Assembly (NCBI RefSeq): GCF_900489465.1
Contig: NZ_UEFQ01000026.1
Location: 1-64,000 of the forward strand
Direction: 5' to 3'
Origin: Aequorivita sp. CIP111184
GTDB taxonomy: Bacteria > Bacteroidota > Bacteroidia > Flavobacteriales > Flavobacteriaceae
DNA: 64,000 nucleotides
Below the pieces are notes generated by a model, which saw nothing but the letters and a program-made list of their open reading frames with translations, was not told where the DNA came from and ran no database searches. How positions within the stretch are numbered: the first letter of the stretch is position 1; every line of letters starts with the position of its first letter. This document shows, piece by piece, positions 27,617-43,688 of this stretch. A program made the position numbers and the translations under genes.

Positions 27617-28825
27617 TTATTGGCTACACATATAATCGCCATTTACATTTATCAATGTATTATTGCCTTCAGTAAGATTTGGATTTGTTGGGGTATATTT
27701 GCTATACAATGCACATGCATCAATATCTTTAAAGGTGGTATTAGTAACCGTTAAATAAGGATCTACCCACATTTCAATAGCACCACCAGCTCCTGAACCT
27801 CCAGCATACTCTATTAGTACATTATCTATTTTGTTTTGTACCGATGTAGATCTGCGAATGGAAAGAGTTCCCCAAGAACCTGGAACTTTAGTAACTCCTG
27901 TAAAAATAATTGGATTTGAAGGAGTTCCTACCGCAATTAATGCACTACCTTCATCAAAGAGCTTATCCAAAACAAGACCCCTCGTTTCTTCAAATTCGAG
28001 AACGAGACCAGGCTCTAACGTTAATTTTGCACCATCTACAATAACTATATCACCAGAAGTACGATAGGGAACAGATAACTTCTTCCAAGTTTGAGAATTT
28101 CCTATTGCTCCTTGATCACCAGCAAATAATCTAATAACATCGGTTGTGTTTCCTGTAAAATCACCACCAGAAATATTTTTCACAATATTGGTATCTGCAA
28201 ATATTGGCATTTCGCAACCTGTTATGGTACAGTTATTAATTTCAACATCATAATTATACCAAATAGAGTTTATACCATAATTTAGTCCATTTTTAATGGT
28301 TACATTATTTAGCCTAAAATAAGTCTCTGCCCTAAAAATTAAGCTTCCTTCTTCACCATTACCACTTAAACCACCATCACCAGCATATTCAATGGTTACG
28401 TAATCAAAACGATTTTTTACACTTTGACTGCGAGAAATAATACCCTTCCAGGCACCTTTGGTTTTAGTAGAAGCAGTAAAGAGTATTGGCTCACTTTGAG
28501 AACCTACAGCATTTATAGAACCTGATTCTTTAATTTCCATACCTGCCGCATCGGTGAACTCAATTACCACTCCTGGTTGAATTTTCAGGTCAACTTCAAC
28601 AGGAATTACACAATTAATAATATAATCCACACCATCGCTTCTATTTTCTAGAACACTTATGGCGTTACTATTGTTACTTTGAAAAGAGTTGCAATCTAAT
28701 GCAATAGGTAGGTCGTTACCCTGTGGATCTGGTTCGTCTTCTTTAGTACAACTACTAAAGGCGCAGCTAAGTATAAGAAGAATAAATAATGTTTTGAATT
28801 TAATTTGAATTGTTTTCATTTTCAT
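27617..28825 (-). CDS. Beta-helix lipoprotein under LytTR-type promoter P1
   Basis: A 402-residue protein with a lipoprotein signal (IQIKFKTLFILLILSCAFSSC) and a short acidic linker. Two beta-helix units follow: LKIQPGVVIEFTDAAGMEIKESGS...SEPILFTA and LTLEPGLVLEFEETRGLVLDKLF...SNPIIFTG. Each is followed by a W-x-G/T-I segment and a Y-A-G motif. It is a paralogue of the neighbouring 26109-27440 gene. Its promoter carries the two half-sites and -7 box shared with the LytTR operon. It is expected to be an envelope lipoprotein, perhaps surface-exposed. Confidence 0.8.
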   Translation of the reverse strand: MKMKTIQIKFKTLFILLILSCAFSSCTKEDEPDPQGNDLPIALDCNSFQSNNSNAISVLENRSDGVDYIINCVIPVEVDLKIQPGVVIEFTDAAGMEIKESGSINAVGSQSEPILFTASTKTKGAWKGIISRSQSVKNRFDYVTIEYAGDGGLSGNGEEGSLIFRAETYFRLNNVTIKNGLNYGINSIWYNYDVEINNCTITGCEMPIFADTNIVKNISGGDFTGNTTDVIRLFAGDQGAIGNSQTWKKLSVPYRTSGDIVIVDGAKLTLEPGLVLEFEETRGLVLDKLFDEGSALIAVGTPSNPIIFTGVTKVPGSWGTLSIRRSTSVQNKIDNVLIEYAGGSGAGGAIEMWVDPYLTVTNTTFKDIDACALYSKYTPTNPNLTEGNNTLINVNGDYMCSQ

Positions 28826-28914: not shown

Positions 28915-28984
28915 CAAAAGTAAATGTGCTTTGATGCTATGGCAATACACAATTAGTATTTAGTACAGTTGGTTTAGAATTTGG
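28915..28984 (-). promoter_or_regulatory. Promoter P1: LytTR-type operator and -7 box
   Basis: Read on the minus strand: half-site CCAAATTCTAA (28984-28974), half-site CTAAATACTAA (28963-28953) at a 21-bp period, 30 intervening bases, then TACTTTTG (28922-28915). The beta-helix gene starts 90 bases further on. The same geometry is seen at four other promoters in this window. Confidence 0.7.
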
Positions 28985-29090
28985 TGTTTTTTCTAAATTC
29001 GAATTAACATAGTCCCTATATATAGAATGCGCAATTAACTTTCTTTGAAGGTTCTCTTGCTTTACCAATTATATAGGAGTATTACGAAAC

Positions 29091-30365
29091 TTAGTTTTTA
29101 ACGATCTGTTTTGTCACGTTTTGGCCATCTCCTGTTGTGATTTTTAAGAAATAACTGCCTGTTGCAAATTGGGCCAGGTTAATTTCAGATTTTCCTTCCC
29201 AAGTTTTTAAGCGTTGGCCGGTGATGGAAAAAAGAGCTATTTCTTGTATGTTATTGGTTTTAGTTTCTAGGTGCAGAATTTCTTGCACTGGGTTGGGAGA
29301 GAGGACAATATTATTTTGCGGATTTGCATTATTTTCGATGCCCAGCTGGCCGTCATCCACAAATACGGAATACATCGCTGTATCATCTGTACAAGCAGGT
29401 GAAGGACTAGTAAATGCTACTTGTCCATTCTTCCACAATGCAGCGAAATTACATTGTTGATTACCATTATTTTCTTGTAAAGTCCCTGACACATAAATAT
29501 CATTTCCCGAAACATATACTGAATAGGCTTGGCCTCCATCTAAATTACCATTATAATTAAGGGTCTCCACCACTCCGTTTTTCCAAAGTTTGGGTTCGGT
29601 GCCATCGTATCCGGCCACATATACATCATTATTATAAACAAATACGGAATTGGCATAAGCATCTGAAGACCCATCGGTTAGGTTTTGTGTGTTTCCGTTT
29701 TTCCATAGCGTGGCGACAAAACTTGTTCCGTTGTACTGGTATCCAGCTACGTAAACATCGTTATTGAAAACAAATACGGATTCGGCTTCAGCAAAATCAG
29801 ACCCATCGTTTAGGTTTTGTGCATCTCCGTTTTTCCATATCTTGGCGAATACGTTTGATCCATCAGTTCCATATCCCGCTACATATACGTCGTCATCGAC
29901 AACAAATACGGATTTGGCAAAAGCGCCATTAGATTCATCAAGATATTGTACATTTCCATTTTTCCATAGCTCGGCAACAAGGGTTGTTCCATTACCCTGA
30001 TATCCAGCTACGTAAACATCATCATTATAAACAAAGACAGCTTCGGCATTAGCATCATAGTTTCCATTGGTAAGGTTTTGCGGAATCCCATTTTTCCACA
30101 GCATGGCCACATAGTAATTACCTTGATCTTCATTCCCTGCCACATATTCATTGCCATTATAAATAAATACATCATTGGCTTGAGCAGAACTGTTTCCGTT
30201 AGTAAGATCGTGTTTTGAGCCATCTCCATGCCAAATTTGGGCAATATTGGAGGAAGAACCATCATTGTCATATCCTGCCACATAAACATCTTGTGCATTA
30301 AAGCTAATGCTGAAGCATAAAGCCAATAGCAGGATTAATTGTTTTAAAATGATTGTCGTTTTCAT
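29091..30365 (-). CDS. Secreted repeat (propeller-like) protein with T9SS sorting domain
   Basis: A 424-residue protein with a signal peptide ending FNAQ, then about seven near-identical repeats of roughly 45 residues. Each contains DVYVAGYxxxG, an A-x-L-W-K-N-G strand and an Asn-rich turn, with YNNDVYVAGY opening the next, probably forming a beta-propeller. The C-terminus is a type A T9SS domain (SPNPVQEILHLETKTNN, LFSITGQRLKTW, GSYFLKI). That domain is nearly identical, in protein and DNA, to the one at 35125-36735. It is likely displayed on the cell surface. Its ligand is unknown. Confidence 0.85.
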   Translation of the reverse strand: MKTTIILKQLILLLALCFSISFNAQDVYVAGYDNDGSSSNIAQIWHGDGSKHDLTNGNSSAQANDVFIYNGNEYVAGNEDQGNYYVAMLWKNGIPQNLTNGNYDANAEAVFVYNDDVYVAGYQGNGTTLVAELWKNGNVQYLDESNGAFAKSVFVVDDDVYVAGYGTDGSNVFAKIWKNGDAQNLNDGSDFAEAESVFVFNNDVYVAGYQYNGTSFVATLWKNGNTQNLTDGSSDAYANSVFVYNNDVYVAGYDGTEPKLWKNGVVETLNYNGNLDGGQAYSVYVSGNDIYVSGTLQENNGNQQCNFAALWKNGQVAFTSPSPACTDDTAMYSVFVDDGQLGIENNANPQNNIVLSPNPVQEILHLETKTNNIQEIALFSITGQRLKTWEGKSEINLAQFATGSYFLKITTGDGQNVTKQIVKN

Positions 30366-30568
30366 TATTTGCTTTTAAATTGATATTAATTTTAATTGTT
30401 TACCCATTTATGTCTTTGAAAAGGAGAAGTAAACATTTTTAATAAAAAAAAATTAAAAAAATTATTTAGGACCCTGGATATCAATGCCGTTTGAGGCAAA
30501 ACAATCTAAGCAATAAGCACCAAGTCCCAATTGCTTCATTATCTCTTTATTTCAGTTTAAAAAAAGTT

Positions 30569-30576
30569 TAACTTTG
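30569..30576 (+). promoter_or_regulatory. -7 box of the sigma/TPR/CHAT cassette
   Basis: TAACTTTG matches TAnnTTTG, 33 bases before the sigma-factor start. No LytTR-type half-sites were found here, so the cassette is probably not part of that regulon. Confidence 0.5.
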
Positions 30577-30608
30577 TTTTTGTTTACTTTTCAACTCCTC
30601 ATGTATTA

Positions 30609-31154
30609 ATGATTGAAGACCAACAATTAATAGAAGATCTCAAACAAAAAAAATTAATAGTCTTAGATAGGATTTACCTTGCCTATAAAGAGGAGTTTTT
30701 CTTGTTTGCCAGAACGTTTTCCGTTTCAGAAGACGATATAGCAGATGTATATCAAGAGACGGTTATTAGTTTTTATGAAAATATTACAAAAGGAAAACTC
30801 AACCAATTAACAAGCTCAATAAAAACGTATTTGTTCGCTATTGGAAAGTTCAAGATCTATAGGCAGCTCAAAAATAATAAGTTGAGTTTCGTGGACGAAC
30901 TAATTATCCATTCCGACGAAGAGCTAAAAATCTTTGAAGTAGAAGTAAGCAAAAAAAGGCAGAAAGTATTAAAAGAAGCTCTTTACAATTTAGGAGCTAA
31001 ATGCAAAGAAGTGTTAGAACTTTTTTATTACGAAGGCCTGACTTTAGATGAAATACAAAACTTTTTAAATTATAGTTCTAAAGATGTATTGAAAAGTCAA
31101 AAATCAAGATGTTTAAAGCAGCTAAAAGAACTTGTGACAAAGAGATATGAATAA
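30609..31154 (+). CDS. ECF-like RNA polymerase sigma factor
   Basis: A 181-residue sigma-70 family protein. Region 2 is recognisable in FFLFARTFSVSEDDIADVYQETVISFYENI (-10 recognition and core binding). Region 4 is seen in YNLGAKCKEVLELFYYEGLTLDEIQNFLNYSSKDVLKSQKSRCLKQLKEL, a helix-turn-helix for the -35 element. The size fits an ECF (group 4) factor. The stop codon overlaps the next start by eight bases, so the sigma factor and the membrane TPR protein are translated together. That is how sigma/anti-sigma pairs are usually arranged. Targets are unknown. Confidence 0.88.
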   Translation: MIEDQQLIEDLKQKKLIVLDRIYLAYKEEFFLFARTFSVSEDDIADVYQETVISFYENITKGKLNQLTSSIKTYLFAIGKFKIYRQLKNNKLSFVDELIIHSDEELKIFEVEVSKKRQKVLKEALYNLGAKCKEVLELFYYEGLTLDEIQNFLNYSSKDVLKSQKSRCLKQLKELVTKRYE

Positions 31155-31857
31155 GGAAGAATTAATAGCGCAGTATTTTAGCGGACAGATTTCCCAAGAG
31201 TCTTTTTTAGCGTTAAAGACCTTATTGGAAAAAGACCGTGCGTTTAAAAAAGATTTTTACGCTCAATTGGAAGTTCAGCAAATTATTGCCCAAGAAAAAA
31301 ATATTCCTTTAAAAGAGCGACTTGACCAACTAGACCAAAAATCTGCTCCAAAAACCAAGTGGTATCTTTATGCAGCTGCCGCTACTATTCTTATCGCCAT
31401 TGGTTCTTTATTTTACAATTCACAACCAGATTATCAAGAGCTGTATGCCAAAAACTTTGAAGCTTACCCCAATGTAATTGCTCCCATAGTGCGCGGTAAT
31501 GAAGCTCCCAATGAAAACAAAATGTCCTTGGCATTTCGTTATTACGATAACAAGGGCTATGCTAAAGCTGCTGATATTTTTAAGTTATTGTATAATGAAA
31601 CCGATGAGGATTACGCCTTTTTTTACTACTCGGTAAGTTTAATGGGTGCAGGAGAAACCACAAAAGCTATCTCTACCTTAGAACAGCATAGTTGGAATGA
31701 ACCACAAAACTACCAAACCATTACACATTGGTATTTAGGCTTAGGGTATTTAAAGCTTGGCAATAAAGAAAAAGCCATATTTTACTTAAAAAAAGTAGCC
31801 GTTTCGGGCAAGCCTTTGACAAAACAAGCAAAAGAAATTTTACGAAAATTACAATAA
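31147..31857 (+). CDS. Single-pass membrane TPR protein, candidate anti-sigma factor
   Basis: A 236-residue protein in three parts. Residues 1-70 are a hydrophilic, helical N-terminus (MNKEELIAQYFSGQISQESF, LLEKDRAFKKDFYAQLEVQ) similar to cytoplasmic anti-sigma domains. About 72-90 is one transmembrane helix preceded by Lys-Thr-Lys. About 105-236 has two or three TPR-like repeats (LAFRYYDNKGYAKAADIFKLLYN, WYLGLGYLKLGNKEKAIFYLKKV). The positive residues before the helix put the N-terminus inside and the TPRs in the periplasm. The overlap with the sigma gene supports an anti-sigma role. This is inference, since no anti-sigma family was matched. Confidence 0.75.
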   Translation: MNKEELIAQYFSGQISQESFLALKTLLEKDRAFKKDFYAQLEVQQIIAQEKNIPLKERLDQLDQKSAPKTKWYLYAAAATILIAIGSLFYNSQPDYQELYAKNFEAYPNVIAPIVRGNEAPNENKMSLAFRYYDNKGYAKAADIFKLLYNETDEDYAFFYYSVSLMGAGETTKAISTLEQHSWNEPQNYQTITHWYLGLGYLKLGNKEKAIFYLKKVAVSGKPLTKQAKEILRKLQ

Positions 31858-31903
31858 TGAGGTCTTTTTTTTATCTTTAGACACTATAAGTCTAGCCCTC
31901 CTT

Positions 31904-34900
31904 ATGAAAAAAAAATATTTTCTCCTCCTACTTTTCCTTTCTTTTGGTGCCTTATTCGCACAAAATTCCAAAAATGAAAAAGCTGAACTTCTTTTTTCGA
32001 ATGAAGCTTATACCGAAGCAATAGCTGTTCGGAAAGAAATCTTAAAATCCATTGACGATAAAAATTCAGATGCTTATAAAAGACAACTTTATAAGATAAA
32101 AATAGCGGAATCGTACCTCATCTCTGATTATGCTGAAATGCTGAGCTTGGTAGAAGAAGCTATAACAATTTTCAACGGGATAGAAAAAAAGACCCCACAT
32201 GAAAAGATCCAAATAAATATCGAATATTTTAATGTGTTGATACCTAATGAGGATTTGGAAAAGGCGTTGCAAGTCGCATCACAGGCCCATAATCTTGTCT
32301 TAGCTCAAAAAAATTCTGAAAAATTTGGAGCACAGACCGCCAAAATCCTCCAAGGCCTCGGAAACATCAAATGGTTTATGCAAGAATGGGAAACCGCAAT
32401 TCCATATTTTAAAAAGGCTATTGAAAAAACTACTGAGATTTACGGCTATTATTCACTAGAAACCGCAAACAACTGTACCTTACTTTCTGATTTGTATAGT
32501 TTCACCCCCGATTTTAATACCGGCTTAGATTACGGGTTGAAGGCACAGGAAATTTACGAGAAAATCCAACCCGAAAACAAATTCTTACTGTTTCAGCAAT
32601 ATGCAAACAATTTATCTAACTTTAAAAAGTATGGTGATTTAGAAAAAACCGGTGAGTTGATGGAAAAATTAACGGAATATTTCAATAAAAATAAAACCTA
32701 CCTCCTTAATTACGAACATCAGGATTTTCCCAACTTGAACGCCGCCAAGTCCATTTACTTATATCGAAAATTGCAAAATGCCACCGCAAGGCAAGATTTT
32801 ACTGAGACCGAAAAAGTCTATGCCCGTTTTCAAAAGGAAATCATGCTTCAAGGCTCTCGGTCCTATTCGCCAAGAGAACGTAACACCCTCTCAAAATTCA
32901 GTTTAGAAACCGGCTTTCTTTTCCATCACTCAGGAAATTATGAAAAAGCAATAAAATATTATTCCAATGCGCTAAAGTTTTCCCAAAGCATCAACTATAA
33001 TTTCGGTGTTTTACAAGCCTATTGGATTATGAGCACCGCTGCAGCGGATAATCAAAAATGGGATGATGTTATTCATTATGTAGATCTGGCTTTTGAGAAT
33101 CCCGATATTAAAAAATTCAACCAGTCCATGACTATGCAGAATAACCTCGGGCACGCTTATTATGGGAAAGGAAATTACGAAAAAGCTTTTGTTGTTTTTA
33201 ACAAAGTGCTGAAACACTATTTTTCTGCAGATGAAGATGTGAATAATTTTTTTGCTATTCAAAACTTAAATGAGATTGCAGGAGTGTATTTAAAAATGCA
33301 CCAAAAACAATCTGATAGCAAATATTTGGAAGAAGCCTACAAAGCCTATCATCTTTCTTCCATTATATTTTCAAGGCTCTACCGTGGCGGGAAATTCAAT
33401 GACCAGTTGGCTACTTATCAGGGTCAAATTAACGAAGGTATGCTTTTATGTGCCACTATGTTGGATGAACATTTTCAGGAAGCTGCCGAACGGGTGGAAA
33501 TTAATAATTCCGATTTGCTTTGGTCGCGATTTTTGGACAATCAAAAAGATTCATCAATAGCAGGATCAATGCTTCAAGCTAAAATAGATTCGCTGAATAA
33601 CGAAAAGGACAAAACTGAGTTAGTAGCAAAAAACAATTCGAAAACAACAAAGGATTCTCTAAAAACAAAATTGGAAAAACTTACCGAAGCAATTACAGAA
33701 TTACAGACCAGAATCGTAAAAAATTATCCTTCATTTTACGAATTTTCACAGAAGGATTTTGATTTAAAAAGGCTGCAAAGTAAAGTTGGTGATAATGAAT
33801 TAGTTCTCCGCTATGTTTTAACAGATTCAATAGTTTTTGCCTTTGGCATCACAAAAAACAAACTATTGTTAAAAAAGCTGCCTATCAACAAGTTGAAACT
33901 AAGGGAATCCATCGATGATTATCTTTCCGATCTTAAGAACTTCAAAACCTCTTATCGCGAAAAATCAGAAAAGTTATATGGAGTTTTGATAAAGCCTATG
34001 GCTGTCGAAAAATATAAAAAACTAACTATTATCAATGATGGTTTTTTGGGCTATCTTCCATTTGAAACCTTAATCAATGAAAACAATAGCTTTTTGTTGG
34101 AAGACTACCAAATATCCTATTCCACTTCGCTGAAACTTTGGAGTATTCAAAACGAAAGCAATGCGAATCCCTCAACTAAATTTGCGGCTTTTTCGCCAAA
34201 TTACAAATTGTCATTCGCCGCAAATACAGAAGATAAAACTGTTAAGGATTTGGTTCGTGAGGGAAATTACCAGCTGTTAGGTGCAGAAAGGGAAGCAAAA
34301 ACAATAAATGCGCTTTTCGATGGAATGCTTTTTTCTTCGGAAAAAGCTACAAAAAATAATTTTGTGTCAAATGTTTCAAACTATGATGTACTTCATTTGG
34401 CGATGCACGCCGTTTTGGACGAGGACAATCCTGCCAAGTCCAGTCTCATTTTTGAGAACAATGAAAAACTATACCTTCCCGAATTCTATCAATTGCAGAT
34501 TCCCGCAAAACTCGCCGTTTTGAGCGCATGTAATACTGGCGCCGGCGAAATAAAACGAGGTGAAGGTGTACAGAGTCTTTCCCGGGCTTTTACCTATGCT
34601 GGGGTGAAAAGTACGGTCATGAGCTTATGGCCTGCGCCCGATCGGGAAACTCCAGAAATTATGTTGTCATTTTATAAAAACTTAAAGAAAGGACAAAACA
34701 AGGCTCAAGCACTTCAACAAGCTAAATTGGAATACTTGAAAAACGCGAAGACGGAAAAGTTACAACATCCTTTCTACTGGGCAGGTTTTGTAATTTCAGG
34801 AGACAATTCTCCCATCCATTTTTCAGAACCATTTTGGCAAAAACCAATAGTTATAATAGCACTGCTGATTGTATTGGCGTCATTATTAGTCATAGTTTAT

Positions 34901-34936
34901 TCCAGAAAAAGAAAAAATAATTCCACTTCTTTATAA
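31904..34936 (+). CDS. Exported TPR-CHAT protein (caspase/separase-like peptidase)
   Basis: A 1010-residue protein. In order: signal peptide (MKKKYFLLLLFLSFGALFAQ); TPR repeats to about residue 520; a coiled-coil-like segment about 555-605 (NEKDKTELVAKNN, KLEKLTEAITELQTR); and a CHAT domain about 640-970 with its His-Cys dyad, H835 in LHLAMHA and C876 in LSACNTGAGE. The C-terminal transmembrane helix near 980-1000 is followed by a basic RKRKNN tail. The topology places the peptidase in the periplasm, held to the inner membrane. CHAT is a clan CD cysteine protease family, often fused to TPRs. The gene starts 46 bases after the membrane TPR gene. Likely substrate or partner: that TPR protein. 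Confidence 0.9.
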   Translation: MKKKYFLLLLFLSFGALFAQNSKNEKAELLFSNEAYTEAIAVRKEILKSIDDKNSDAYKRQLYKIKIAESYLISDYAEMLSLVEEAITIFNGIEKKTPHEKIQINIEYFNVLIPNEDLEKALQVASQAHNLVLAQKNSEKFGAQTAKILQGLGNIKWFMQEWETAIPYFKKAIEKTTEIYGYYSLETANNCTLLSDLYSFTPDFNTGLDYGLKAQEIYEKIQPENKFLLFQQYANNLSNFKKYGDLEKTGELMEKLTEYFNKNKTYLLNYEHQDFPNLNAAKSIYLYRKLQNATARQDFTETEKVYARFQKEIMLQGSRSYSPRERNTLSKFSLETGFLFHHSGNYEKAIKYYSNALKFSQSINYNFGVLQAYWIMSTAAADNQKWDDVIHYVDLAFENPDIKKFNQSMTMQNNLGHAYYGKGNYEKAFVVFNKVLKHYFSADEDVNNFFAIQNLNEIAGVYLKMHQKQSDSKYLEEAYKAYHLSSIIFSRLYRGGKFNDQLATYQGQINEGMLLCATMLDEHFQEAAERVEINNSDLLWSRFLDNQKDSSIAGSMLQAKIDSLNNEKDKTELVAKNNSKTTKDSLKTKLEKLTEAITELQTRIVKNYPSFYEFSQKDFDLKRLQSKVGDNELVLRYVLTDSIVFAFGITKNKLLLKKLPINKLKLRESIDDYLSDLKNFKTSYREKSEKLYGVLIKPMAVEKYKKLTIINDGFLGYLPFETLINENNSFLLEDYQISYSTSLKLWSIQNESNANPSTKFAAFSPNYKLSFAANTEDKTVKDLVREGNYQLLGAEREAKTINALFDGMLFSSEKATKNNFVSNVSNYDVLHLAMHAVLDEDNPAKSSLIFENNEKLYLPEFYQLQIPAKLAVLSACNTGAGEIKRGEGVQSLSRAFTYAGVKSTVMSLWPAPDRETPEIMLSFYKNLKKGQNKAQALQQAKLEYLKNAKTEKLQHPFYWAGFVISGDNSPIHFSEPFWQKPIVIIALLIVLASLLVIVYSRKRKNNSTSL

Positions 34937-35124
34937 ATATAAAACTTATTGTTTTTAACTCTTATTTTTTTTGCTTTCTGTAAAACTAATTGCTGAGGTA
35001 TTCTGAAAAAGTTTATTGTTTTAAATTACTTTCTTCAGTTGCGAGTACCCCAACAAAAGATATGCAATTAATTTTTCCGTGAGGATTTTCTTGCTTTAAC
35101 AAGTATATAGAATCATTAAGCTAA

Positions 35125-36735
35125 TTAGTTTTTAACTATATGTTTTACCATTTCTTGGCCATCTTCTGTTATAATCTTTACGAAATAACTCCCCGACGCA
35201 AATTGTGACAGCTCAATTTCAGATTTTCCTTGCCAGCTTTTTAAACGTTGGCCAGTGATGGAAAAAAGATCTATTTCTTGTATGTTATTGGTTTTAGTTT
35301 CTAGATGCAAGATGTCCTGTACCGGATTTGGATACGCAATGAATTTATTCTTTGTGTAATCTTCAACGCTCAAAGGTGTGGTCAGTCTCCATAATTCATA
35401 ACCGCGACTGTCATAGTTGGCAGAAAAATAAAGTGATCCGTCAAAATCAATAAAACCGTAAAACTCTTCCAAAGAAGAAGAGGTAGGGTTAGATTCTGGC
35501 GAAATCATTGATGTCCCTAATTGCGTTCCGTCAGATTCCCAAAGTTGCACACCATTGGTACCATTATCTGCTCTAAAATATAACTTATCATTATACTCGA
35601 AGAATCCTAATCCATAAGAACTAGAATCATCTGTGCCTGGATTGATATCCTTCACCAACTGAGTTCCTGAGGGGCTCCCATCGGTTACCCAGAATTCTAG
35701 ACCATGAGTGCCGTCATCTGCAGAGAAATATAATTTGTTATTATAAACCTGGAAATTGTAAATATCGCTATCACCAGCTGTGTTGATTAATTTGACCATG
35801 GAAGTTCCAGACGTTGTGCCATCTGTGACCCAGAGTTGAAAACCATTGGTGCCATCGTCTGCAGTAAAATATAATTGTCCGTTATAGACCCCAAATACAT
35901 ATTGGTCTGGATCAATATCCTTTAGCATTTGTGTACCACTCTCCGTTCCATCTGACACCCACAATTCACCGTCATTTGCCCTGAAATATAATTTCCCATT
36001 ATATTCTGTAAATGGACCGTTGACTCCATCAAGACTACCCAGGTTAATATCTTTGATCATTTGGGTGCCAACAGTAGTGCCATCGGTTACCCAAAACTCT
36101 CGTCCATGGGTATTGTCATCTGCAGTAAAATATACTTTATCATTAAAGTTGATGAAAGAATATGGACTACCATTGTTGGTGCCGGAGTTAATGTCTTTTA
36201 ACAATTGGGTACCTCCAACGGTTCCATCTGTTTCCCATAGTTCATCACCATTAGTGTTATGAACAGCTTCAAAAATCAATTTTCCGTTATATTCTATATA
36301 GTTTTGAGGGCCAAATGGTCCATCTGGATTGCTAGGATTCACAATTTGAGTGCCTGAAGCTGTTCCATCGCTCGTCCAGAGTCTGCTATAATTTGTGCCA
36401 TCATTTGATGTGAAATAGAACTTTCCGTTTAAGGGTACAAAATACTCTGTATCACTATCATTATTCCCAGGATTAATATCTTTTAATATGTGTGTTCCAG
36501 CGGTAGTGCCATCGCTCACCCATGGCTCCCTACCATGAATTCCGTCGTCTGCATAAAGATAGAATTCACCATTAGAGACCTCTGATATAATATAAAAGCC
36601 ACTATCTCCGGTAGGGTTAATGTCTTTGACTAATTCAAAATCTTGGGCTACAAGATTGGTTGCGAAAAATGTTGTTATCAAGAGGAAGGTAAAAGTAGTT
36701 CTCAAATGTAAAAAATTTATACTATGCGTTTTCAT
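35125..36735 (-). CDS. Secreted ELWxTDGT-repeat protein with T9SS sorting domain
   Basis: A 536-residue protein with a signal peptide ending NLVAQ. About nine repeats of roughly 47 residues follow, each with a REFWVTDGTTVGTQ-like core followed by a lysine-aspartate-isoleucine-asparagine turn and a YNGKLYF strand. These ELWxxDGT repeats are common on Bacteroidota surface proteins and probably fold as a propeller. The T9SS domain (AYPNPVQDILHLETKTNN, ITGQRLKSW, GSYFVKI) is almost the same as that of 29091-30365, as is the sequence just downstream of the stop. The CTD and 3' flank were therefore duplicated on both sides of the sigma/TPR/CHAT cassette. Confidence 0.85.
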   Translation of the reverse strand: MKTHSINFLHLRTTFTFLLITTFFATNLVAQDFELVKDINPTGDSGFYIISEVSNGEFYLYADDGIHGREPWVSDGTTAGTHILKDINPGNNDSDTEYFVPLNGKFYFTSNDGTNYSRLWTSDGTASGTQIVNPSNPDGPFGPQNYIEYNGKLIFEAVHNTNGDELWETDGTVGGTQLLKDINSGTNNGSPYSFINFNDKVYFTADDNTHGREFWVTDGTTVGTQMIKDINLGSLDGVNGPFTEYNGKLYFRANDGELWVSDGTESGTQMLKDIDPDQYVFGVYNGQLYFTADDGTNGFQLWVTDGTTSGTSMVKLINTAGDSDIYNFQVYNNKLYFSADDGTHGLEFWVTDGSPSGTQLVKDINPGTDDSSSYGLGFFEYNDKLYFRADNGTNGVQLWESDGTQLGTSMISPESNPTSSSLEEFYGFIDFDGSLYFSANYDSRGYELWRLTTPLSVEDYTKNKFIAYPNPVQDILHLETKTNNIQEIDLFSITGQRLKSWQGKSEIELSQFASGSYFVKIITEDGQEMVKHIVKN

Positions 36736-36874
36736 TAATTTTTATATTTTAAGTTTTCTTTCCAATTTTTGAGCAGTGGTATTTGGTAGAATAATTAGTT
36801 GTTAATTCCTGTTTGCCTTCAGGTTGCTCGTGGTCTTTACAAATAATTTTAAGAGCACAAGTTTTAGTGAATAC

Positions 36875-37738
36875 TTAAAGCTTCCCCAAAATATCGTTTA
36901 CTTCGTAATCGCTTAAATCGAAATATTTAGGGTCTGATGATTTTTTGAAATTGGTAATGTCCATTTGCATACTAGGCGTATCGTTGTTCTTTTCAAAATA
37001 TATACTGCGAACCATCATTCCTCTTGGAAAGTTTTTATCCATTTTGGAAGGAGTATTGGAAGATACTTTAGTAGAAAAATCCCTGATCTGCCCACCAAAA
37101 AGATGGTTGCCACTCAAATCGATACTGATGTCTTGCGTAACCCAAGCGTCCATTTTAGTTTTTTCCTTTGTATTTAGATATATGTATTTCTGGCAGTTAT
37201 AGCCGTTTATTTCTTTACGTTCATTGGTACGCGTCCATTGGCCCGCATCGTCGTCCAAGTCTGCACCTTGGCTCGCCATTTTTTCGGCCATTTTCTGAAA
37301 ATTAATCATTGGCATTTTCATGGCGGTTTTTTCCTTTTCATTTACCATATAAGTGGCGGCGCCTTTATAATCAAAAAGCATTCGGGTTTCGTTTTTATTG
37401 CCTTCGTTCATTACCATACATTCTCCTGTTTTTCCAAAAACCATTTTTGCGGTCATGGTGTTATCTAGCTTTCCATTCTTTTTAAAGTTCTGCGTTTCCA
37501 TCACCAAGGTTGCTTGTACTGGATTTTCAGGAATTGGATAGCGACTATCGTTTTCATAGGTAATATCCTCAAGTGCTTTTTTTCCCTTTTCTCTTTCAGG
37601 TTCTGCATATTTTTCCTCCATATCGTTTCTCACTTTCTTTTTTATTTTACTCTTAATAAAGCCACGTTGTGCTTGTGCGGGAGCGATAAATAGGAATACA
37701 AGTAAGGATACCAAAAAGAAGATATATGATTTTTTCAT
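36875..37738 (-). CDS. DUF4412 exported protein under LytTR-type promoter P2
   Basis: A 287-residue protein with a signal peptide ending APAQAQ, a lysine/glutamate-rich basic segment (KSKIKKKVRNDMEEKYAEPEREKGKKA), then a DUF4412 domain. That domain shows alternating strands such as VFGKTGECMVMNEG and MLFDYKGAATYMVNEKEKTAMKMPM, and the conserved NGYNCQKYIYL near residue 184. DUF4412 proteins are periplasmic or outer-membrane-associated beta-rich proteins of unknown function. The promoter holds two half-sites and a -7 box identical in layout to those of the LytTR operon. It is divergent from the beta-barrel gene. Confidence 0.82.
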   Translation of the reverse strand: MKKSYIFFLVSLLVFLFIAPAQAQRGFIKSKIKKKVRNDMEEKYAEPEREKGKKALEDITYENDSRYPIPENPVQATLVMETQNFKKNGKLDNTMTAKMVFGKTGECMVMNEGNKNETRMLFDYKGAATYMVNEKEKTAMKMPMINFQKMAEKMASQGADLDDDAGQWTRTNERKEINGYNCQKYIYLNTKEKTKMDAWVTQDISIDLSGNHLFGGQIRDFSTKVSSNTPSKMDKNFPRGMMVRSIYFEKNNDTPSMQMDITNFKKSSDPKYFDLSDYEVNDILGKL

Positions 37739-37773
37739 CGTGATTTAATTTTAAATTTTATAAATATAAAAAG

Positions 37774-37843
37774 CAAACTTATTCAAGAGCGAAATGCCTT
37801 ACAACCCCCAATTAGAATTTGGTGGTTATGGCTTAGAATTAGG
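37774..37843 (-). promoter_or_regulatory. Promoter P2: LytTR-type operator and -7 box
   Basis: On the minus strand: CCTAATTCTAA (37843-37833), CCAAATTCTAA (37822-37812) at a 21-bp period, 30 bases, then TAAGTTTG (37781-37774). The DUF4412 gene starts 36 bases later. It shares the intergenic region 37739-38076 with the divergent promoter P3. Confidence 0.75.
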
Positions 37844-37907
37844 TATTTAAAGTGTGGGAAATATCAAATTTATTGTGAAGATTTCTTGAAGCCATTTTAT
37901 AAAAAAA

Positions 37908-37977
37908 CCGAATTCTAAGCCATAGTTACTGTATGCTAAGTAACGGTTGTGTTCTGCCAAAGGGTTAAATAGATTTG
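37908..37977 (+). promoter_or_regulatory. Promoter P3: LytTR-type operator and -7 box
   Basis: CCGAATTCTAA (37908-37918), weaker half-site CTGTATGCTAA (37929-37939, 8 of 11 matches) at a 21-bp period, 30 bases, then TAGATTTG (37970-37977). The beta-barrel gene begins 99 bases further on. P2 and P3 half-sites face each other, giving a 14-bp inverted repeat (37827-37840 with 37911-37924). Confidence 0.7.
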
Positions 37978-38076
37978 CCCGTTATTAAACAAAACTGAAT
38001 CATATAAAAAGGAAAGTAGCTTAATTGTCAGAAATTCTTTTTATTGGTATTAATCAACATCAAATTTAGATTTATT

Positions 38077-38661
38077 ATGAAAAAATTAGTATTATTTTTT
38101 GCAGTTGCGGTATTATCTTTTAATGCAGCACAATCACAAGAGTTTCGTTTAGGGGCGAAATTGGGTTTAAATGTTGCATCCTTAGGTGGCGATAGTTACG
38201 GCATTGGAAGCTTGGGAGCAAGAACAAGTTTCCATATTGGTGGTCTTGCAGAAATTCCTTTAATGGGTAAACTTGCATTACAACCAGAATTATTGTACTC
38301 CTCAGAAGGATCAGATTGGAGCTTCGGAAGTGGTGGCAACAATATAAAGTTAGATTACGTTCGTGTTCCCGTATTGGCAAAATATTATATTATTGAAGGT
38401 CTTAGCGCAGAGGCAGGACCGGTATTTGGCGTATTGGTATCTGCAAAGACAGACGATTTTGACATTAAAGATGAATACAAAACCTTTGATGCCGCATTTG
38501 GAATAGGCGCTTCATACCGTTTAGATATGGGCGTGTTTTTTAGCCTTCGCTATAATAAAGGGTTGCTGAACGTAAATGAGGATTATACGGAAGAAGGCGT
38601 AACATATAGCTATAAAAACCAGAGCAATGTTTTTCAGGTTTCTGCTGGATATACTTTCTAG
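38077..38661 (+). CDS. Outer-membrane beta-barrel protein (OMP_b-brl_2 type)
   Basis: A 194-residue protein. The ATG at 38077 starts the signal peptide MKKLVLFFAVAVLSFNAAQSQ; the in-frame extension upstream would bury it and is rejected. The mature protein has about eight amphipathic strands of a small barrel: FRLGAKLGLNVASL, ALQPELLYSSEG, DYVRVPVLAKYYI, LSAEAGPVFGVLV, AAFGIGASYRLD, FFSLRYNKGLLNV. It ends in the aromatic VFQVSAGYTF expected by the BAM machinery. This type is common in flavobacteria and usually of unknown role. It is driven by P3 and so likely controlled by the nearby LytTR regulator. Confidence 0.88.
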   Translation: MKKLVLFFAVAVLSFNAAQSQEFRLGAKLGLNVASLGGDSYGIGSLGARTSFHIGGLAEIPLMGKLALQPELLYSSEGSDWSFGSGGNNIKLDYVRVPVLAKYYIIEGLSAEAGPVFGVLVSAKTDDFDIKDEYKTFDAAFGIGASYRLDMGVFFSLRYNKGLLNVNEDYTEEGVTYSYKNQSNVFQVSAGYTF

Positions 38662-38685
38662 ATTATTTTAAAGAATTTCAGATAG

Positions 38686-38715
38686 AAAAGCACGGATATA
38701 CGCTGTGCTTTTTTT
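38686..38715 (+). terminator. Terminator of the beta-barrel gene
   Basis: AAAAGCAC and GTGCTTTT arms around an 11-base loop, with a continuing T run. It lies between the barrel gene and the convergent LytTR gene. Confidence 0.8.
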
Positions 38716-38769
38716 GTATAAAAACAAATCTGCTTTTTCAGATTATAAACAAATAGTGAAGCTAAACCG

Positions 38770-39528
38770 TTACTTAAACCGAATCATCATTTTTAAAATT
38801 TCGTTTATCTGTTTTGACTTTTGTCTGGATACAGGTATTTCTATATCATCGTTCATAATTAAACTGCCACCGTCTTGTTTTAATATTCCATTTACAAATT
38901 GTGGGTTTATTAAATGTGATTGGTGCACTCTAAAAAATCCGTGATCTGTAAGTAGTTCTTCAATTTCCTTTAAGGTTCTGCTGATTAGGATTTTGTTTCC
39001 GTCTTTACAGAAAATGTTGGTGTAATTACTATCTGATTGGCACCGGACAATATTTTTTATTTCTACAATTTTGTAACCTACACCCGTTGGCAATGCAATT
39101 TGTGAACATTCCTTTTTGGGATTGTGCAATTGGTTATGAAATAGTTGCCATTGCTTTTCGCTTGTTTTATTTCTTCGCTTCTCCCAATTTGAGAATGCTT
39201 TTACAATATTTTTTTCTGTGATCGGTTTCAGTAAATAATTGATTGCGCTGTAGCGAAATGCTTTTATAGCATATTGATCATAAGCGGTGGTGAATATAAT
39301 ATCAAAATCTATTGGAAGTAGATTGTCTAACAAAGTGAAACCATTTAAATTGGGCATTTCAATATCTAAAAATAATAAATCAGGCGGATTTTTCTTGATA
39401 AACTCCAATCCTTGAAGCGGGTTGTTAAAAATGCCCGTTATGGTATAATCAGAATGTGTTTTTTCTATTAAATTCTGCAGCACGTTCGTGCAGTGCTTTT
39501 CATCGTCTATTATAATTATTTTCGTCAT
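38770..39528 (-). CDS. LytTR-family response regulator
   Basis: A 252-residue two-domain regulator. The receiver domain (about 1-120) has the acidic pocket IIIIDDEKH and phospho-acceptor D55 in LLFLDIEMPN, plus the conserved threonine and lysine in FTTAYDQYA and LLKPI. The C-terminal LytTR DNA-binding domain (about 145-245) shows YKIVEIKNIVRCQSDSNYTNIF, ISRTLKEIEELL and FFRVHQSHLINPQFV. LytTR proteins bind direct repeats about 21 bp apart. Five promoters within 13 kb carry such repeats, including that of its own operon. It starts three bases after the histidine-kinase stop. Confidence 0.95.
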   Translation of the reverse strand: MTKIIIIDDEKHCTNVLQNLIEKTHSDYTITGIFNNPLQGLEFIKKNPPDLLFLDIEMPNLNGFTLLDNLLPIDFDIIFTTAYDQYAIKAFRYSAINYLLKPITEKNIVKAFSNWEKRRNKTSEKQWQLFHNQLHNPKKECSQIALPTGVGYKIVEIKNIVRCQSDSNYTNIFCKDGNKILISRTLKEIEELLTDHGFFRVHQSHLINPQFVNGILKQDGGSLIMNDDIEIPVSRQKSKQINEILKMMIRFK

Positions 39529-39531
39529 CAG

Positions 39532-41559
39532 TTAATCTTCATAAGTTAATATTATTTTAGTTCCCAACGCCCTTCCTTCGTTTTCTAGATCTATAATTTT
39601 AAAGTGAATTGCTTGATCATTTAAGTGGTTGTAAAGTGTTAACCGATCTTGAACAATGGTTGTGCCCATAGATTCGTGTAGTTTTTTCTTCTTTCCACTT
39701 TCTTTTCTGCCTATGCCGTTGTCTTCAATTATTATCTGTAGATTTTCTGTGGTGTCGAAGATTACGTTGAGTTTCTTCTTAATTTTTAAGCTGGGATGCA
39801 ATCCGTGCCAAATGGCATTTTCCACCAAAGGTTGTAATAATAATGGGGGAATTTGAAATTGGGAAAGCGCTTCTTTGGAAACATATTGAATGCTGTAACT
39901 AAATTCTGTTCCCATACGGTTTTCTTCAAGGGATAAATAAAGTTCTAAAATTTCTAGTTCCTCTTCAACAGTTATTTTTTTTAGATTACTGTTTTTTAGT
40001 ATGCCACGAAGCAGGCTGGAAAAATCATCAAGATATTTTACGGCATCATCGTTCCTGGAAGTCATTATTAAGTGTTTAATCGCGCTTAGACTGTTAAAAA
40101 TGAAATGTGGATTCATTTGGGAGCGCAATGCAACCATTTCGGTTTCTTTTATTTTTTGGGTAAAATCGTCCTTTATTTTTTGCTCTTTTTCCTTTTCAAT
40201 TTTAGAATAAAGCTTGATTAATTCTGCCGTTTTCTCACTTATCTGCTTGTCCAGTTCCAGATTCATATTTTCCTGTAAAAGCTTGTTTTCCTGTAATTGT
40301 GTTATCAAGGCATCATTGGCAATTTCTTTTTCTTTCTGAAGTAGAATTACATTTTCCCCCAAAGCCAGCGAAAAGCAATAAACCTCTATCAATAGCCCAA
40401 TTTGAAAAATAATATTTGGCGATTCATTAAAACCAAAGATGCTGTCTGATGAATATTGCAATCCGGCAGAACCAATATAGGAAGCCGATAAGGCAGCAAT
40501 AAAAAAGAACGATTGTCCAACAATGAAATAGATTAATAAGGGATGTTTCACCTTGAATATTATCCAAAAAATCAAAACGAAGTTTAATGGAAGAATAATT
40601 ATTCTCACTATCGTAAAAACAAGAACCATTAAATACGCATCATAAAAAAATTGCGCGATGAGAAAACGGGATATGGCATATATAAAACAAGCGTAACCTA
40701 AATATTTCAGGGCTCGCGCCAATGCTTTGTCATATTTTTCTACAGTTAGCAAGTTTATAATGAAAAAAATATAAAACCCAATAAAGGCGAATTGTACGGG
40801 CTCATTTAGATTATAGGAAAGCTTTGGGAAATATTCAAAAAAATTCCCAACCGGCGCCAAGGTGCTTCTTAGCACTATAAATCCATAAATGAGTTGAAAA
40901 AAAAGATAGCCTAAATAATACAGGTAAAGGTTTGCAGATAGCCGTAGCCAAAATACCACCATAAAAATGATAATGGTAATCAACGAAATGATATAAAAAT
41001 AAATAAATGCTATCTCGTTTGATTGGTATTCATAATTGTTTTGAAAATAGTTAAAATGGCCTTTGTCACTATAAATAATAGGGTAATTGAGTATTCCCGT
41101 AAAATGGTTGGCATTTAGCTTAACATAAAACTGTGACTTTTTAAAAGGCTCCAAAGTTAATTCTGTAAAAAAGTCTATCGATTTATTTGCACGTTCCGGT
41201 AACGGTACGAACGTGCCGTTTTTAAAGGTTTTAAAATTTTCTCCTTTTTGCTGATAAATGGTAGTAAAATGGTCTAAGCTGTATAAATAGCTGTGAAGTG
41301 TATCTTCCGTTCGGTTTTCAAGCTGAAATTTTAACCAAAGCGCTGTGTTTGGTTTTGCCTTGTATGAAGCATCATAAGGCTTCCAATTGTTTTTTTTCCT
41401 GATGGCTTCAAAAGGAGTTTCTAAAGCTGTTTCTAAAGCTTGGACAAATTCATTATTAACCAGCGGAAGTTTATTTGCCATAGAATCGACCCTAATTTGA
41501 CCATAAAGTTGTGTCAAATTGGCTAAAAGACAAAGCGCTAATAAAAGTCGAATTTTCAT
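39532..41559 (-). CDS. 7TM sensor histidine kinase of the LytS/YehU (HisKA_7TM/HIK) class
   Basis: A 675-residue sensor kinase. After a signal peptide (MKIRLLLALCLLANLTQLYG) comes an extracytoplasmic 7TMR-DISM sensor domain of about 165 residues (ALWLKFQLENRTEDTLHSYLYS), then seven or so membrane helices (about 185-400) and a coiled coil (about 405-465). The His_kinase domain with H in RSQMNPHFIFNSLSAIKHLI and an ATPase domain with LLQPLVENAIWHGLHP and IIEDNGIGR follow. It phosphorylates the LytTR partner in the same operon. The ligand may be a carbohydrate or peptide in the periplasm. The operon has promoter P4. Confidence 0.94.
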   Translation of the reverse strand: MKIRLLLALCLLANLTQLYGQIRVDSMANKLPLVNNEFVQALETALETPFEAIRKKNNWKPYDASYKAKPNTALWLKFQLENRTEDTLHSYLYSLDHFTTIYQQKGENFKTFKNGTFVPLPERANKSIDFFTELTLEPFKKSQFYVKLNANHFTGILNYPIIYSDKGHFNYFQNNYEYQSNEIAFIYFYIISLITIIIFMVVFWLRLSANLYLYYLGYLFFQLIYGFIVLRSTLAPVGNFFEYFPKLSYNLNEPVQFAFIGFYIFFIINLLTVEKYDKALARALKYLGYACFIYAISRFLIAQFFYDAYLMVLVFTIVRIIILPLNFVLIFWIIFKVKHPLLIYFIVGQSFFFIAALSASYIGSAGLQYSSDSIFGFNESPNIIFQIGLLIEVYCFSLALGENVILLQKEKEIANDALITQLQENKLLQENMNLELDKQISEKTAELIKLYSKIEKEKEQKIKDDFTQKIKETEMVALRSQMNPHFIFNSLSAIKHLIMTSRNDDAVKYLDDFSSLLRGILKNSNLKKITVEEELEILELYLSLEENRMGTEFSYSIQYVSKEALSQFQIPPLLLQPLVENAIWHGLHPSLKIKKKLNVIFDTTENLQIIIEDNGIGRKESGKKKKLHESMGTTIVQDRLTLYNHLNDQAIHFKIIDLENEGRALGTKIILTYED

Positions 41560-41566
41560 CAGTTTA

Positions 41567-41635
41567 CTAAAATACTATTCTATCTGCTACATTCCTGAGT
41601 TTTTTAGAATTCGGTAGCTTTTATTTAGTATTCGG
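41567..41635 (-). promoter_or_regulatory. Promoter P4 of the LytTR operon (autoregulatory operator)
   Basis: On the minus strand: CCGAATACTAA (41635-41625), CCGAATTCTAA (41614-41604) at a 21-bp period, 29 bases, then TATTTTAG (41574-41567), one mismatch from TAnnTTTG. The kinase gene starts 8 bases later, so the leader is very short. The intergenic region 41560-41969 also holds P5 and a 35-codon frame. Confidence 0.65.
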
Positions 41636-41654
41636 TGTGCTTTTCTACTTTTTC

Positions 41655-41724
41655 CCGAATTCTAATTGATCCTTGCCAAATGCTAGCTGTGGGTTTTATT
41701 GAGAGATCTATATGGGTAAGTTTG
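41655..41724 (+). promoter_or_regulatory. Promoter P5: LytTR-type operator and -7 box
   Basis: CCGAATTCTAA (41655-41665), half-site CCAAATGCTAG (41676-41686) at a 21-bp period, 30 bases, then TAAGTTTG (41717-41724). It faces away from P4 and would transcribe the 35-codon frame at 41767 and the T9SS gene at 41970. Confidence 0.7.
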
Positions 41725-41766: not shown

Positions 41767-41874
41767 ATGAAAAAAACTTCTACAAAACGAAGGCTCTTCT
41801 TAAAGTTTTTGAAGAATCTTAAGATTTTTTTGGATAACAATTTTCGGTGCAAAAATATTTTCGCCGCAAACTAG
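41767..41874 (+). CDS. Candidate small cationic peptide
   Basis: A 35-codon frame 42 bases after the P5 -7 box. The predicted peptide begins MKKTSTKRRLFLKFL, has two clusters of basic residues alternating with Leu/Ile/Phe, and ends with a less charged segment containing one cysteine. It has no signal peptide and no recognised family. The first part would form an amphipathic, positively charged helix. It lies 95 bases before the T9SS gene, so it could be a real peptide or a chance frame in a long leader. Confidence 0.35.
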   Translation: MKKTSTKRRLFLKFLKNLKIFLDNNFRCKNIFAAN

Positions 41875-41969: not shown

Positions 41970-43688
41970 ATGAAAAATGTAATTACTTTTTTAATGTGCA
42001 CCCTCTGTGTCTTCACAGGTATTGCTCAAACAGATCTTAGTGGAAGCCAAATGGTAATTCCCGAAAGAACACCAGAGCTCGAGGCCTTGTACTTACAGAC
42101 TAACCAGCTTGAAAATAATGGAACGGCGGCAGAAATCAATGCCAACCGACTTGCCATTAAAAATGCGTGGCAGGAAGTAGATCCTGCAGTAGCCGCACTT
42201 TATAAGCCTACTGAAACCGGAAATGTGAGCCTGCCAACAATGTCTGAAGGAAGTTATGACGAATCAAGGTCTCCTCAAGATTGGGATAGCGATGGTCTCC
42301 TACGCGAGGGTTTTATTGATGGCTTAGATATGGATGTCTCGAGTAATAATGGTGATATCTATGTTACCGCCTTCGAAAACTATGTAGGAACCGATGCAAA
42401 CCTCTATGTCTATCGCTCTACAGATTACGGTACTTCTTTTGAGCTATGGAAAAGTATCGTATTCAATAACACAGTTTTTGAGAAAATTGAGACCATCTCC
42501 ATAGATGGTAGCGGTGATAATTATCTGCTTGCTTATATGTTGGACGAAAATTCATTGTTCTTTGCCGTAAGAATTAATATGGCTACAAAAGATGTTGATA
42601 ACGATATTGTTAGTACGGATGTGACCGATTTTGGAGTGGACAGGAACTATCCGGGAAGCACTTCTGGACAGCGAGTTTATGCTACCTATTTAAAGACAGA
42701 TGGAGGCTGTAGTGATGGAGATTTGTTGGTTTCAGCAAGAAGTACGGCTGGCAGTTATGGATTTGATTGGGTAGATGAAACCAATCTGGGCACATGTGCA
42801 AGACAACTGGATTTTGCATACGGAAGGGATGGCGGAAGCTATACCACTTTTATTGGAGGTGTTAGCGGTAGTTTATATGCTAAATTTAATTCCAGCAGTA
42901 ACGATCCGGGTTCCTGGGAAAATAATGACAATATTGTTAACGGCTCGACATTGGAGTCTCTTAATCCCACTATTCGCGCTGCTAGATATGCTCCTGCTTC
43001 AGATAAGGTAATTATCTTTACTTCATCTAGGAATGCGGGAACTACAGATAATTATGACGCAAAAGGATATATCCGTGAAAATGGTGGAAGCTTTGCTGAG
43101 TTCAATAATTATCCCGCAGGTGGTGGAGGCGATTGGAGTATTGTGCAACCAGACAGCTGGGTGCGTAAAACTAATGATACTGAAATAATCCGCACCGCCT
43201 ATGTTCGTAATAGAATAGACGAGTCCGAAAATAACACCAATAGATCATTGACCTTTAACGGTACCAGTTTTGACTCTTTTGAACCAGTAGCCGATGCCAA
43301 TAAAGATGTTTTTGAAGGCTTTCCATCGGTAATTGCAGAGACCGAAGACGAATTGCCTTGTGTGGCCTTTGCAGGAACAGATGTTAGTACAGGAATTCGA
43401 TACGGCTATAATCTCTACTTTGATCGTAAGTCTACTTTGGGTGTGGAACAAAACAGTTTAAAAGATTTCACTTTCTATCCAAACCCAACGCAAGATATTG
43501 TAAATCTTTCCGCAAAAAATACCATTGAAAATGTTTCAATATATTCTTTGTTGGGGCAGGAAGTACTGCAATCTTCTCCAAAACAGAAAAGTCCATCCCT
43601 CAACATTTCTTCACTTGCTTCTGGCATCTATGTGATGAAAGTTGAGGTAGATGGCCAAACAGGTACCTATAAAATTATAAAAGAGTAA
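41970..43688 (+). CDS. Secreted protein with T9SS sorting domain, probably LytTR-controlled
   Basis: A 572-residue protein. The signal peptide MKNVITFLMCTLCVFTGIAQ is followed by a helical segment with many Asn and Glu (to about 70). A central beta-rich, probably propeller, region (about 85-480) contains one BNR/Asp-box-like motif, STDYGTSFELW. The C-terminal type A T9SS domain is FTFYPNPTQDIVNLSAK, VSIYSLLGQEVL and SSLASGIYVMKVEVDGQTGTYKIIKE. It should be displayed at or released from the surface. P5 lies upstream, separated by about 240 bp that hold the small cationic frame. The binding target is unknown. Confidence 0.82.
   Translation: MKNVITFLMCTLCVFTGIAQTDLSGSQMVIPERTPELEALYLQTNQLENNGTAAEINANRLAIKNAWQEVDPAVAALYKPTETGNVSLPTMSEGSYDESRSPQDWDSDGLLREGFIDGLDMDVSSNNGDIYVTAFENYVGTDANLYVYRSTDYGTSFELWKSIVFNNTVFEKIETISIDGSGDNYLLAYMLDENSLFFAVRINMATKDVDNDIVSTDVTDFGVDRNYPGSTSGQRVYATYLKTDGGCSDGDLLVSARSTAGSYGFDWVDETNLGTCARQLDFAYGRDGGSYTTFIGGVSGSLYAKFNSSSNDPGSWENNDNIVNGSTLESLNPTIRAARYAPASDKVIIFTSSRNAGTTDNYDAKGYIRENGGSFAEFNNYPAGGGGDWSIVQPDSWVRKTNDTEIIRTAYVRNRIDESENNTNRSLTFNGTSFDSFEPVADANKDVFEGFPSVIAETEDELPCVAFAGTDVSTGIRYGYNLYFDRKSTLGVEQNSLKDFTFYPNPTQDIVNLSAKNTIENVSIYSLLGQEVLQSSPKQKSPSLNISSLASGIYVMKVEVDGQTGTYKIIKE

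Follow-up and report, generated by a model that had tools for sequence, protein, structure and literature searches.

A probable LytTR operator and a predicted small surface-protein regulon in the genus Aequorivita

The window studied here is a stretch of 64,000 nucleotides (nt) from Aequorivita sp. CIP111184 (contig NZ_UEFQ01000026.1, positions 1 to 64,000 of the forward strand; G000:C13 in our set). The complete genome has 3.5 Mb. In this window we find five promoters, P1 to P5, each of them preceded by two 11 base pair (bp) direct repeats which we call half-sites. We hold with confidence, from comparison of sequences, that these repeats serve as operators for the LytTR response regulator whose gene lies in the same window and which would act by the mechanism proposed below. 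Very probably they represent a new LytTR operator and mark a small regulon of surface proteins. The five promoters are listed first, together with the regulator and its kinase. Expectation values (E) of the promoters refer to R1, a model of 77 positions based on sequence only, which was built on 32 aligned promoters from 11 genomes, the window included.

P1, 28915..28984, minus strand: half-sites 28984-28974 and 28963-28953; -7 box TACTTTTG at 28922-28915; serves 27617-28825; R1 E 2.0e-10
P2, 37774..37843, minus strand: half-sites 37843-37833 and 37822-37812, with 0 mismatches; -7 box TAAGTTTG at 37781-37774; serves 36875-37738; R1 E 5.4e-14
P3, 37908..37977, plus strand: half-sites 37908-37918 and 37929-37939; -7 box TAGATTTG at 37970-37977; serves 38074-38661; R1 E 4.8e-12
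P4, 41567..41635, minus strand: half-sites 41635-41625 and 41614-41604; -7 box TATTTTAG at 41574-41567; no TTG at -33; serves the kinase-regulator operon; R1 E 9.2e-13
P5, 41655..41724, plus strand: half-sites 41655-41665 and 41676-41686; -7 box TAAGTTTG at 41717-41724; serves 41970-43688; R1 E 2.3e-11
38770..39528, minus strand: LytTR response regulator with receiver and LytTR domain (Pfam Response_reg E 3.3e-20, LytTR E 7.9e-19)
39532..41559, minus strand: LytS-type histidine kinase with a 7TMR-DISM sensor region (Pfam His_kinase, 7TMR-DISM_7TM, 7TMR-DISMED2)

Direct reading of the window letters confirms what the initial annotation had described: the double half-sites are at these coordinates, they have the same orientation relative to the gene although they lie on both strands, their pitch is 21 bp, and half-site 2 is 30 bp from the -7 box (29 bp in P4). 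The box itself had been given as TAnnTTTG in all five, which is the case for P1, P2, P3 and P5; P4 is one letter off. When the whole window is scanned with the pattern, the five sites are its best matches, with 0-3 mismatches, while the sixth has 5. At up to 3 mismatches 0.02 sites are expected, and none of 100 dinucleotide shuffles of the window reached five.

The distribution of these sites in the genus follows that of the regulator. Our comparison set has 28 Aequorivita genomes. The regulator is present in 17 of them at 73% identity or more (73-87% in the 16 besides its own); the next match has 42% and is a paralog in G012. A search for the half-site pair with at most one mismatch and no -7 box, which is an independent test with respect to R1, gave 56 hits, found in 17 of 17 regulator-bearing genomes and in 0 of the 11 others. 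Fifty of them are also R1 sites with a -7 box (30 of the 30 perfect hits and 20 of the 26 with one mismatch). R1 itself, with up to 150 candidates scored per genome, gave 62 sites with E values of 2.3e-8 or lower, every one in the 17 regulator-bearing genomes. An additional site in G019 (E 4.5e-4) pairs divergently with the kinase promoter. The 11 regulator-free genomes have 15 hits at E 0.05 or below, the best with 4.4e-4, and ten of the 15 adjoin a paralogous LytTR operon to which we will return. The initial annotation had suggested a scan of the complete genome and of related ones; both the half-site hits and the strong R1 sites are restricted to the regulator-bearing genomes. It had also made its proposal depend on conservation at orthologous promoters: the promoter of the kinase operon, of the P4 type, has kept its site in all 17 genomes with the operon. 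On a tree of rpoB for 27 genomes (G007, with no rpoB match, was left out) the presence of the regulator requires six changes, five of them forced by well supported branches.

We have examined the architecture of 63 sites; their pitch is fixed by the pattern and by the model. Half-site 1 reads CCRAATWCTMA and half-site 2 CYRAATWCTAA (10 of the 63 sites have G where W is given), and position 15 is A in 98% of the sites. The -7 box stands at a distance of 30 bp in 52 sites and 29 bp in 11. It agrees completely with TAnnTTTG, the -7 consensus of Bacteroidota (PMC9723704), in 42 sites and is one letter off in the remaining 21. At -33 (positions 40-42), 7 bp past half-site 2, TTG or TTT is found in 45 of the 63. 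Such an arrangement is expected of LytTR operators: direct repeats of 9-11 bp about two helical turns apart and just upstream of -35/-33, in genomes which encode a regulator with a LytTR domain, often beside the sites.

P4 and P5 together (41567-41724) form a divergent array of four half-sites. The starts of the half-sites which face each other across the gap between the kinase promoter and its divergent partner are 18-22 bp apart in 18 of 19 loci. The exception is G009, with 30 bp, about one helical turn more.

The system is also found outside the genus. Among 299 genomes of Flavobacteriaceae, orthologs of the kinase (E 1e-80) are present in four, and the same four have strong R1 hits (E <1e-9). 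Two of the ortholog-bearing genomes belong to other genera, in which the kinase is about 50% identical; in both, the divergent region is flanked on either side by a perfect CCAAATTCTAA-N10-CCAAATTCTAA, which includes the promoter of the kinase operon. Weak R1 hits (E 5e-6 to 9e-5) appear in 5 of the 299 genomes of the family: L239 precedes a kinase-LytTR pair and L242 is near a kinase, while in the 3-kb loci L240, L241, L243, L245 and L247 neither kinase nor LytTR was matched. In 78 loci with more distant kinases (L159-L236) there are eight motif hits at a pitch of 21, compared with 0 in the reversed sequences and 0-3 at other pitches of 15-29. Seven of the eight directly precede a kinase gene or just follow a LytTR gene; the hit in L209 is inside a kinase frame. 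Three Flavobacterium loci (L198, L216 and L225) have similar sites before the kinase, and two of the three also behind the LytTR gene. These distant loci lend modest support.

The paralogous operon is present in seven genomes (L143-L149). It has a kinase of about 653-659 amino acids (aa), a LytTR protein 36-38% identical to that of the window, and then a gene for a surface protein. In 7/7 genomes examined a site precedes the kinase and another follows the LytTR gene, which makes 14 sites; 14/14 have, at a distance of exactly 30 bp, a -7-like box with one mismatch. Half-site 1 begins with T or G in all 14, and with C in 62 of the 63 sites of the window system. The LytTR domains of the two systems show 14 fixed differences, among them RQ to QR at residues 235-236; our guess is that this is the protein change which matches the first letter of half-site 1. 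We put forward tentatively, and with more doubt than conviction, that flavobacterial LytTR systems share the grammar NCRAATWCTMA twice at 21 bp with a -7 box at 30 bp, and that paralogs are insulated mainly by this first letter. The genome of the window has eight LytTR genes; the seven other loci, of 3.3 kb each, have no pair better than 3 mismatches in the two 8-letter cores. A search of the PDB with the LytTR domain of the window gave a single weak match (E 0.03).

The initial annotation assigned all five promoters to the regulator at 38770-39528. Its cognate role is supported because the sites are found in exactly the 17 of 28 genomes which have the regulator, with at least five changes of presence on the tree; because the promoter of the kinase and the regulator has a site in 17/17 genomes and in two genomes of other genera; because the paralogous LytTR operon and its neighbouring gene share the layout, with a changed first letter, in 7/7 genomes examined; and because known LytTR operators have a similar geometry. 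The proposed regulator is thus very probably the right one, and activation is likely. The kinase, with its 7TMR-DISM sensor, would phosphorylate the regulator, and two regulator molecules would then bind one face of the DNA at the two 11-bp half-sites, CCRAATWCTMA with a pitch of 21 bp. The half-sites end about 7 bp upstream of -33; the bound regulator would assist the housekeeping polymerase at its TAnnTTTG box. The operon would activate itself through P4, and the regulator would also activate a small exported set: a beta-helix lipoprotein, a LolA/GLPGLI-like protein, an outer-membrane barrel and a cargo protein of the type IX secretion system (T9SS).

Several observations weigh against this interpretation. 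Six of the 56 hits of the half-site pair are outside the R1 set, and at least three of these six read as short tandem repeats. The half-site pattern read backwards has 23 hits in 9 of the 28 genomes, ten of them in G012; we guess that they are repeats. The training set of R1 included 32 of these sites, and its spacing statistic is therefore in part a product of the model. The distribution of the sites is the same as that of the regulator, so that the tree provides five independent pairs of genomes which differ in both; five pairs are too few for significance, as the floor of the sign test is p 0.0625. TTG at -33 is found in just 28 of the 63 sites; the kinase promoters of the P4 type do not have it, and they mostly show TATTTTAG rather than the full -7 box. 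The gene served is ambiguous at 5 of the 63 sites, where the first long frame is more than 500 bp downstream. Finally, in regulator-bearing genomes the site is present at 6 of the 19 upstream regions of the barrel that were examined, which means that the target set changes fast.

Other explanations share part of this evidence. It might be that the same LytTR protein is bound at the sites, but represses or acts differently at each promoter. Position alone is no proof of sign, and with P4 and P5 back to back, at the short spacing found in 18/19 loci, one bound array could serve or block both sides. We consider this unlikely, because the second half-site stops some 7 bp short of -33, where HdrR of S. 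mutans activates (PMC6193735), and because P4 has a poor -33 and a poor -7, as is often seen in promoters which depend on an activator. It is less probable still that the sites are bound by some other DNA-binding protein which always travels with the operon. Co-occurrence by itself cannot separate linked genes, but some targets are far from the operon: in G001 the barrel and its site are at about 538 kb, and in G004, G015, G039 and G041 the barrel is on another contig, so that the regulator would act in trans. Moreover the paralogous LytTR operon and the LytTR operons of Flavobacterium have the same layout with a variant half-site.

The likeness of the sites could also come from recently copied promoter DNA or from remnants of coding sequence. 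Read on the other strand, P2 gives NLFKSEMPYNPQLEFGGYGLELGI and P3 much the same, similar to the end of a protein; this frame is open in 20 of the 63 sites, when 12.6 are expected from shuffles, and in 5 of the 8 P2 orthologs. A coding remnant was rejected, as the frame has a stop at 43 of the 63 sites, including 3 of the 8 P2 orthologs. Recent copying is hard to reconcile with downstream genes from unrelated families, with spacers between half-sites that differ and with a pattern that persists across genera, and we give this whole explanation a very small probability. Chance in AT-rich DNA has a practically negligible one. It draws some support from tandem arrays of a heptamer, (CTCAATA)n, which match the loose pattern: they mimic a double half-site because 3 x 7 = 21. 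In the genome of the window 46 hits are found with up to 3 mismatches, many of which are heptamer arrays (the backward control has 7), and at R1 E 0.05 what is left is P1-P5 and one array. The expected count of 0.02 in the window and the distribution, 17/17 against 0/11 genomes, refute chance.

The arrays of ACTCAAT, with period 7, are found in this genome at C38:229867-229933, C11:26185-26223, C43:109266-109332, C16:61727-61793 and other places (L050 and L045 among the loci). Of two heptamer arrays which we have read, one is just 5' of an ATG and the other behind a terminator-like stretch. Heptamer arrays (TAACTGA) are known in some Bacteroidetes (PMC4679880).

The genes served in the window by the other four promoters are the following. 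They look exported.

27617..28825, minus strand: P1 target, lipoprotein with a predicted right-handed beta-helix, 402 aa (model and alignment)
36875..37738, minus strand: P2 target, exported protein, GLPGLI/LolA-like, 287 aa (NCBIfam below cut-off; model)
38074..38661, plus strand: P3 target, outer-membrane beta-barrel of the TDE1717 family (Pfam OMP_b-brl_2 E 6.8e-22; NCBIfam NF049866 above cut-off)
41970..43688, plus strand: P5 target, T9SS cargo protein, 572 aa (Por_Secre_tail in Pfam and NCBIfam)

Two of the gene assignments in the initial annotation agree with the families found: the outer-membrane barrel behind P3 and the T9SS protein behind P5, which has a Por_Secre_tail sorting tail. 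The small peptide frame reported behind P5 is also present; it has 35 aa (41767-41874, plus strand), is rich in lysine and lies between P5 and the T9SS gene. For the lipoprotein behind P1, Pfam has no match at E 0.001, but its AlphaFold2 model shows short strands one after another, the arrangement of a beta-helix (predicted local distance difference test, pLDDT, of 87.4). Pfam Beta_helix is matched weakly, below cut-off, by 4 of the 4 homologs scanned, and an alignment shows an invariant Ser-Cys close to the N terminus. A fold search with this lipoprotein gave nothing at E 0.001; its best rows were beta-helix lyases. The DUF4412 label of the P2 gene could not be confirmed, as Pfam has no match at E 0.001 and the NCBIfam GLPGLI match is below threshold; its model, which has moderate confidence with a pLDDT of 64, is similar to LolA and to ependymin-related folds. 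Behind this gene, in the same cluster, 35125-36735 (minus strand) codes for a protein with ELWxxDGT repeats, nine of which were matched, and with a T9SS tail; the window scan found no double half-site of its own.

Over the 63 sites the first gene is the kinase in 17 (17 genomes), a beta-helix lipoprotein in 15 (13 genomes), a LolA/GLPGLI-like protein in 8, the barrel in 6 and a T9SS protein in 4 (3 genomes). The rest are two groups with two members each and nine genes seen once, of which one is truncated at the end of its contig. The LolA/GLPGLI-like gene is present in 8 of the 28 genomes, all of them regulator-bearing, and has the site in its P2 promoter in 8/8. As a test of loss we have examined, for the barrel, the upstream regions of 30 of its 58 homologs, those with a locus available: six have the site, all of them in regulator-bearing genomes, and 0 of the 11 in regulator-free genomes. 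Two barrel duplicates of the window genome are 85% identical; 38074-38661, beside the regulator, has the site and G000:C11:23477-24064 does not. This pair is a case of a promoter gained or lost within a genome after duplication.

A related double half-site, of CAGAATWCTMA type with a TACTTT box, is found with a protein of 554-555 aa and a signal-peptide-like start in G008, G015 and G041:

L151, 1426: related site of the 554-555 aa protein
L152, 4379: related site of the 554-555 aa protein
L153, 1095: related site of the 554-555 aa protein

Flavobacteria carry many LytTR systems. With a motif at a fixed distance from the -7 box, the targets can be read from sequence alone, and the motif ties a 7TMR-DISM kinase to named surface proteins. 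The pair of paralogs offers a test case for how LytTR proteins choose their DNA.

AgrA and VirR are LytTR activators, and the operators of AgrA, VirR and BtsR are of the same type as those of YpdB (PyrR) and HdrR/BrsR. LytTR sites in general are described as a pair of repeats, each 9-11 nt long and separated by 11-13 nt, with no common consensus (PMC4847170); in S. mutans the repeats are 4-11 bp upstream of -35, and HdrR activates from its repeats (PMC6193735). The operators in the window resemble those of YpdB (PyrR) and HdrR/BrsR by their paired repeats of 9-11 bp near -35 (PMC4847170, PMC6193735), and differ from them by the sequence CCRAATWCTMA, by 10 bp between 11-bp repeats and by the fixed distance to a Bacteroidota -7 box. 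A literature search, in which subscription papers were mostly beyond reach, turned up no paper that gives the operator of a two-component LytTR regulator from flavobacteria. In the accessible text of two papers on P. gingivalis (PMC3764172, PMC8757827) the terms LytR, LytT and direct repeat are absent, and that of two on Flavobacterium (PMC5395568, PMC10197871) names LytTR, with no operator found.

The initial annotation knew of no described version in Bacteroidota. This does not hold, since repeats from Bacteroides, with a different half-site, had been tabulated earlier: according to Table 3 of PMC6193735, LytTR operons of B. thetaiotaomicron and B. ovatus have TATCTTTG promoters preceded by the 11-bp repeats TCCGGTATTCA/ACCGGAAATCA or by a closely similar version of them. 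These operons, similar to LytTR regulatory systems (LRS), also have 11-bp direct repeats upstream of a Bacteroidota promoter, which in their case is TGTA/TGTG-19 bp-TATCTTTG (PMC6193735). As listed there, they have 11 bp between repeats and their own promoter as the sole one, and their regulator is bound to the membrane and has a partner there. The window system differs by its soluble two-component regulator, by another half-site and by its set of targets.

By its proteins the window system resembles BtsS/BtsR and YpdA/YpdB of E. coli, which also combine a LytS-type kinase with a receiver-LytTR regulator. The regulator of the window matches the BtsR model over its full length, with 133 bits, far below the cut-off of 246. 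The sensors are different: 5TMR-LYT in the E. coli systems (PMC10653868) and 7TMR-DISM in the window kinase, in which Pfam found no 5TMR-LYT at E 0.001. The targets are different as well, pyruvate transporters in BtsSR and YpdAB and, as we predict, surface proteins in Aequorivita.

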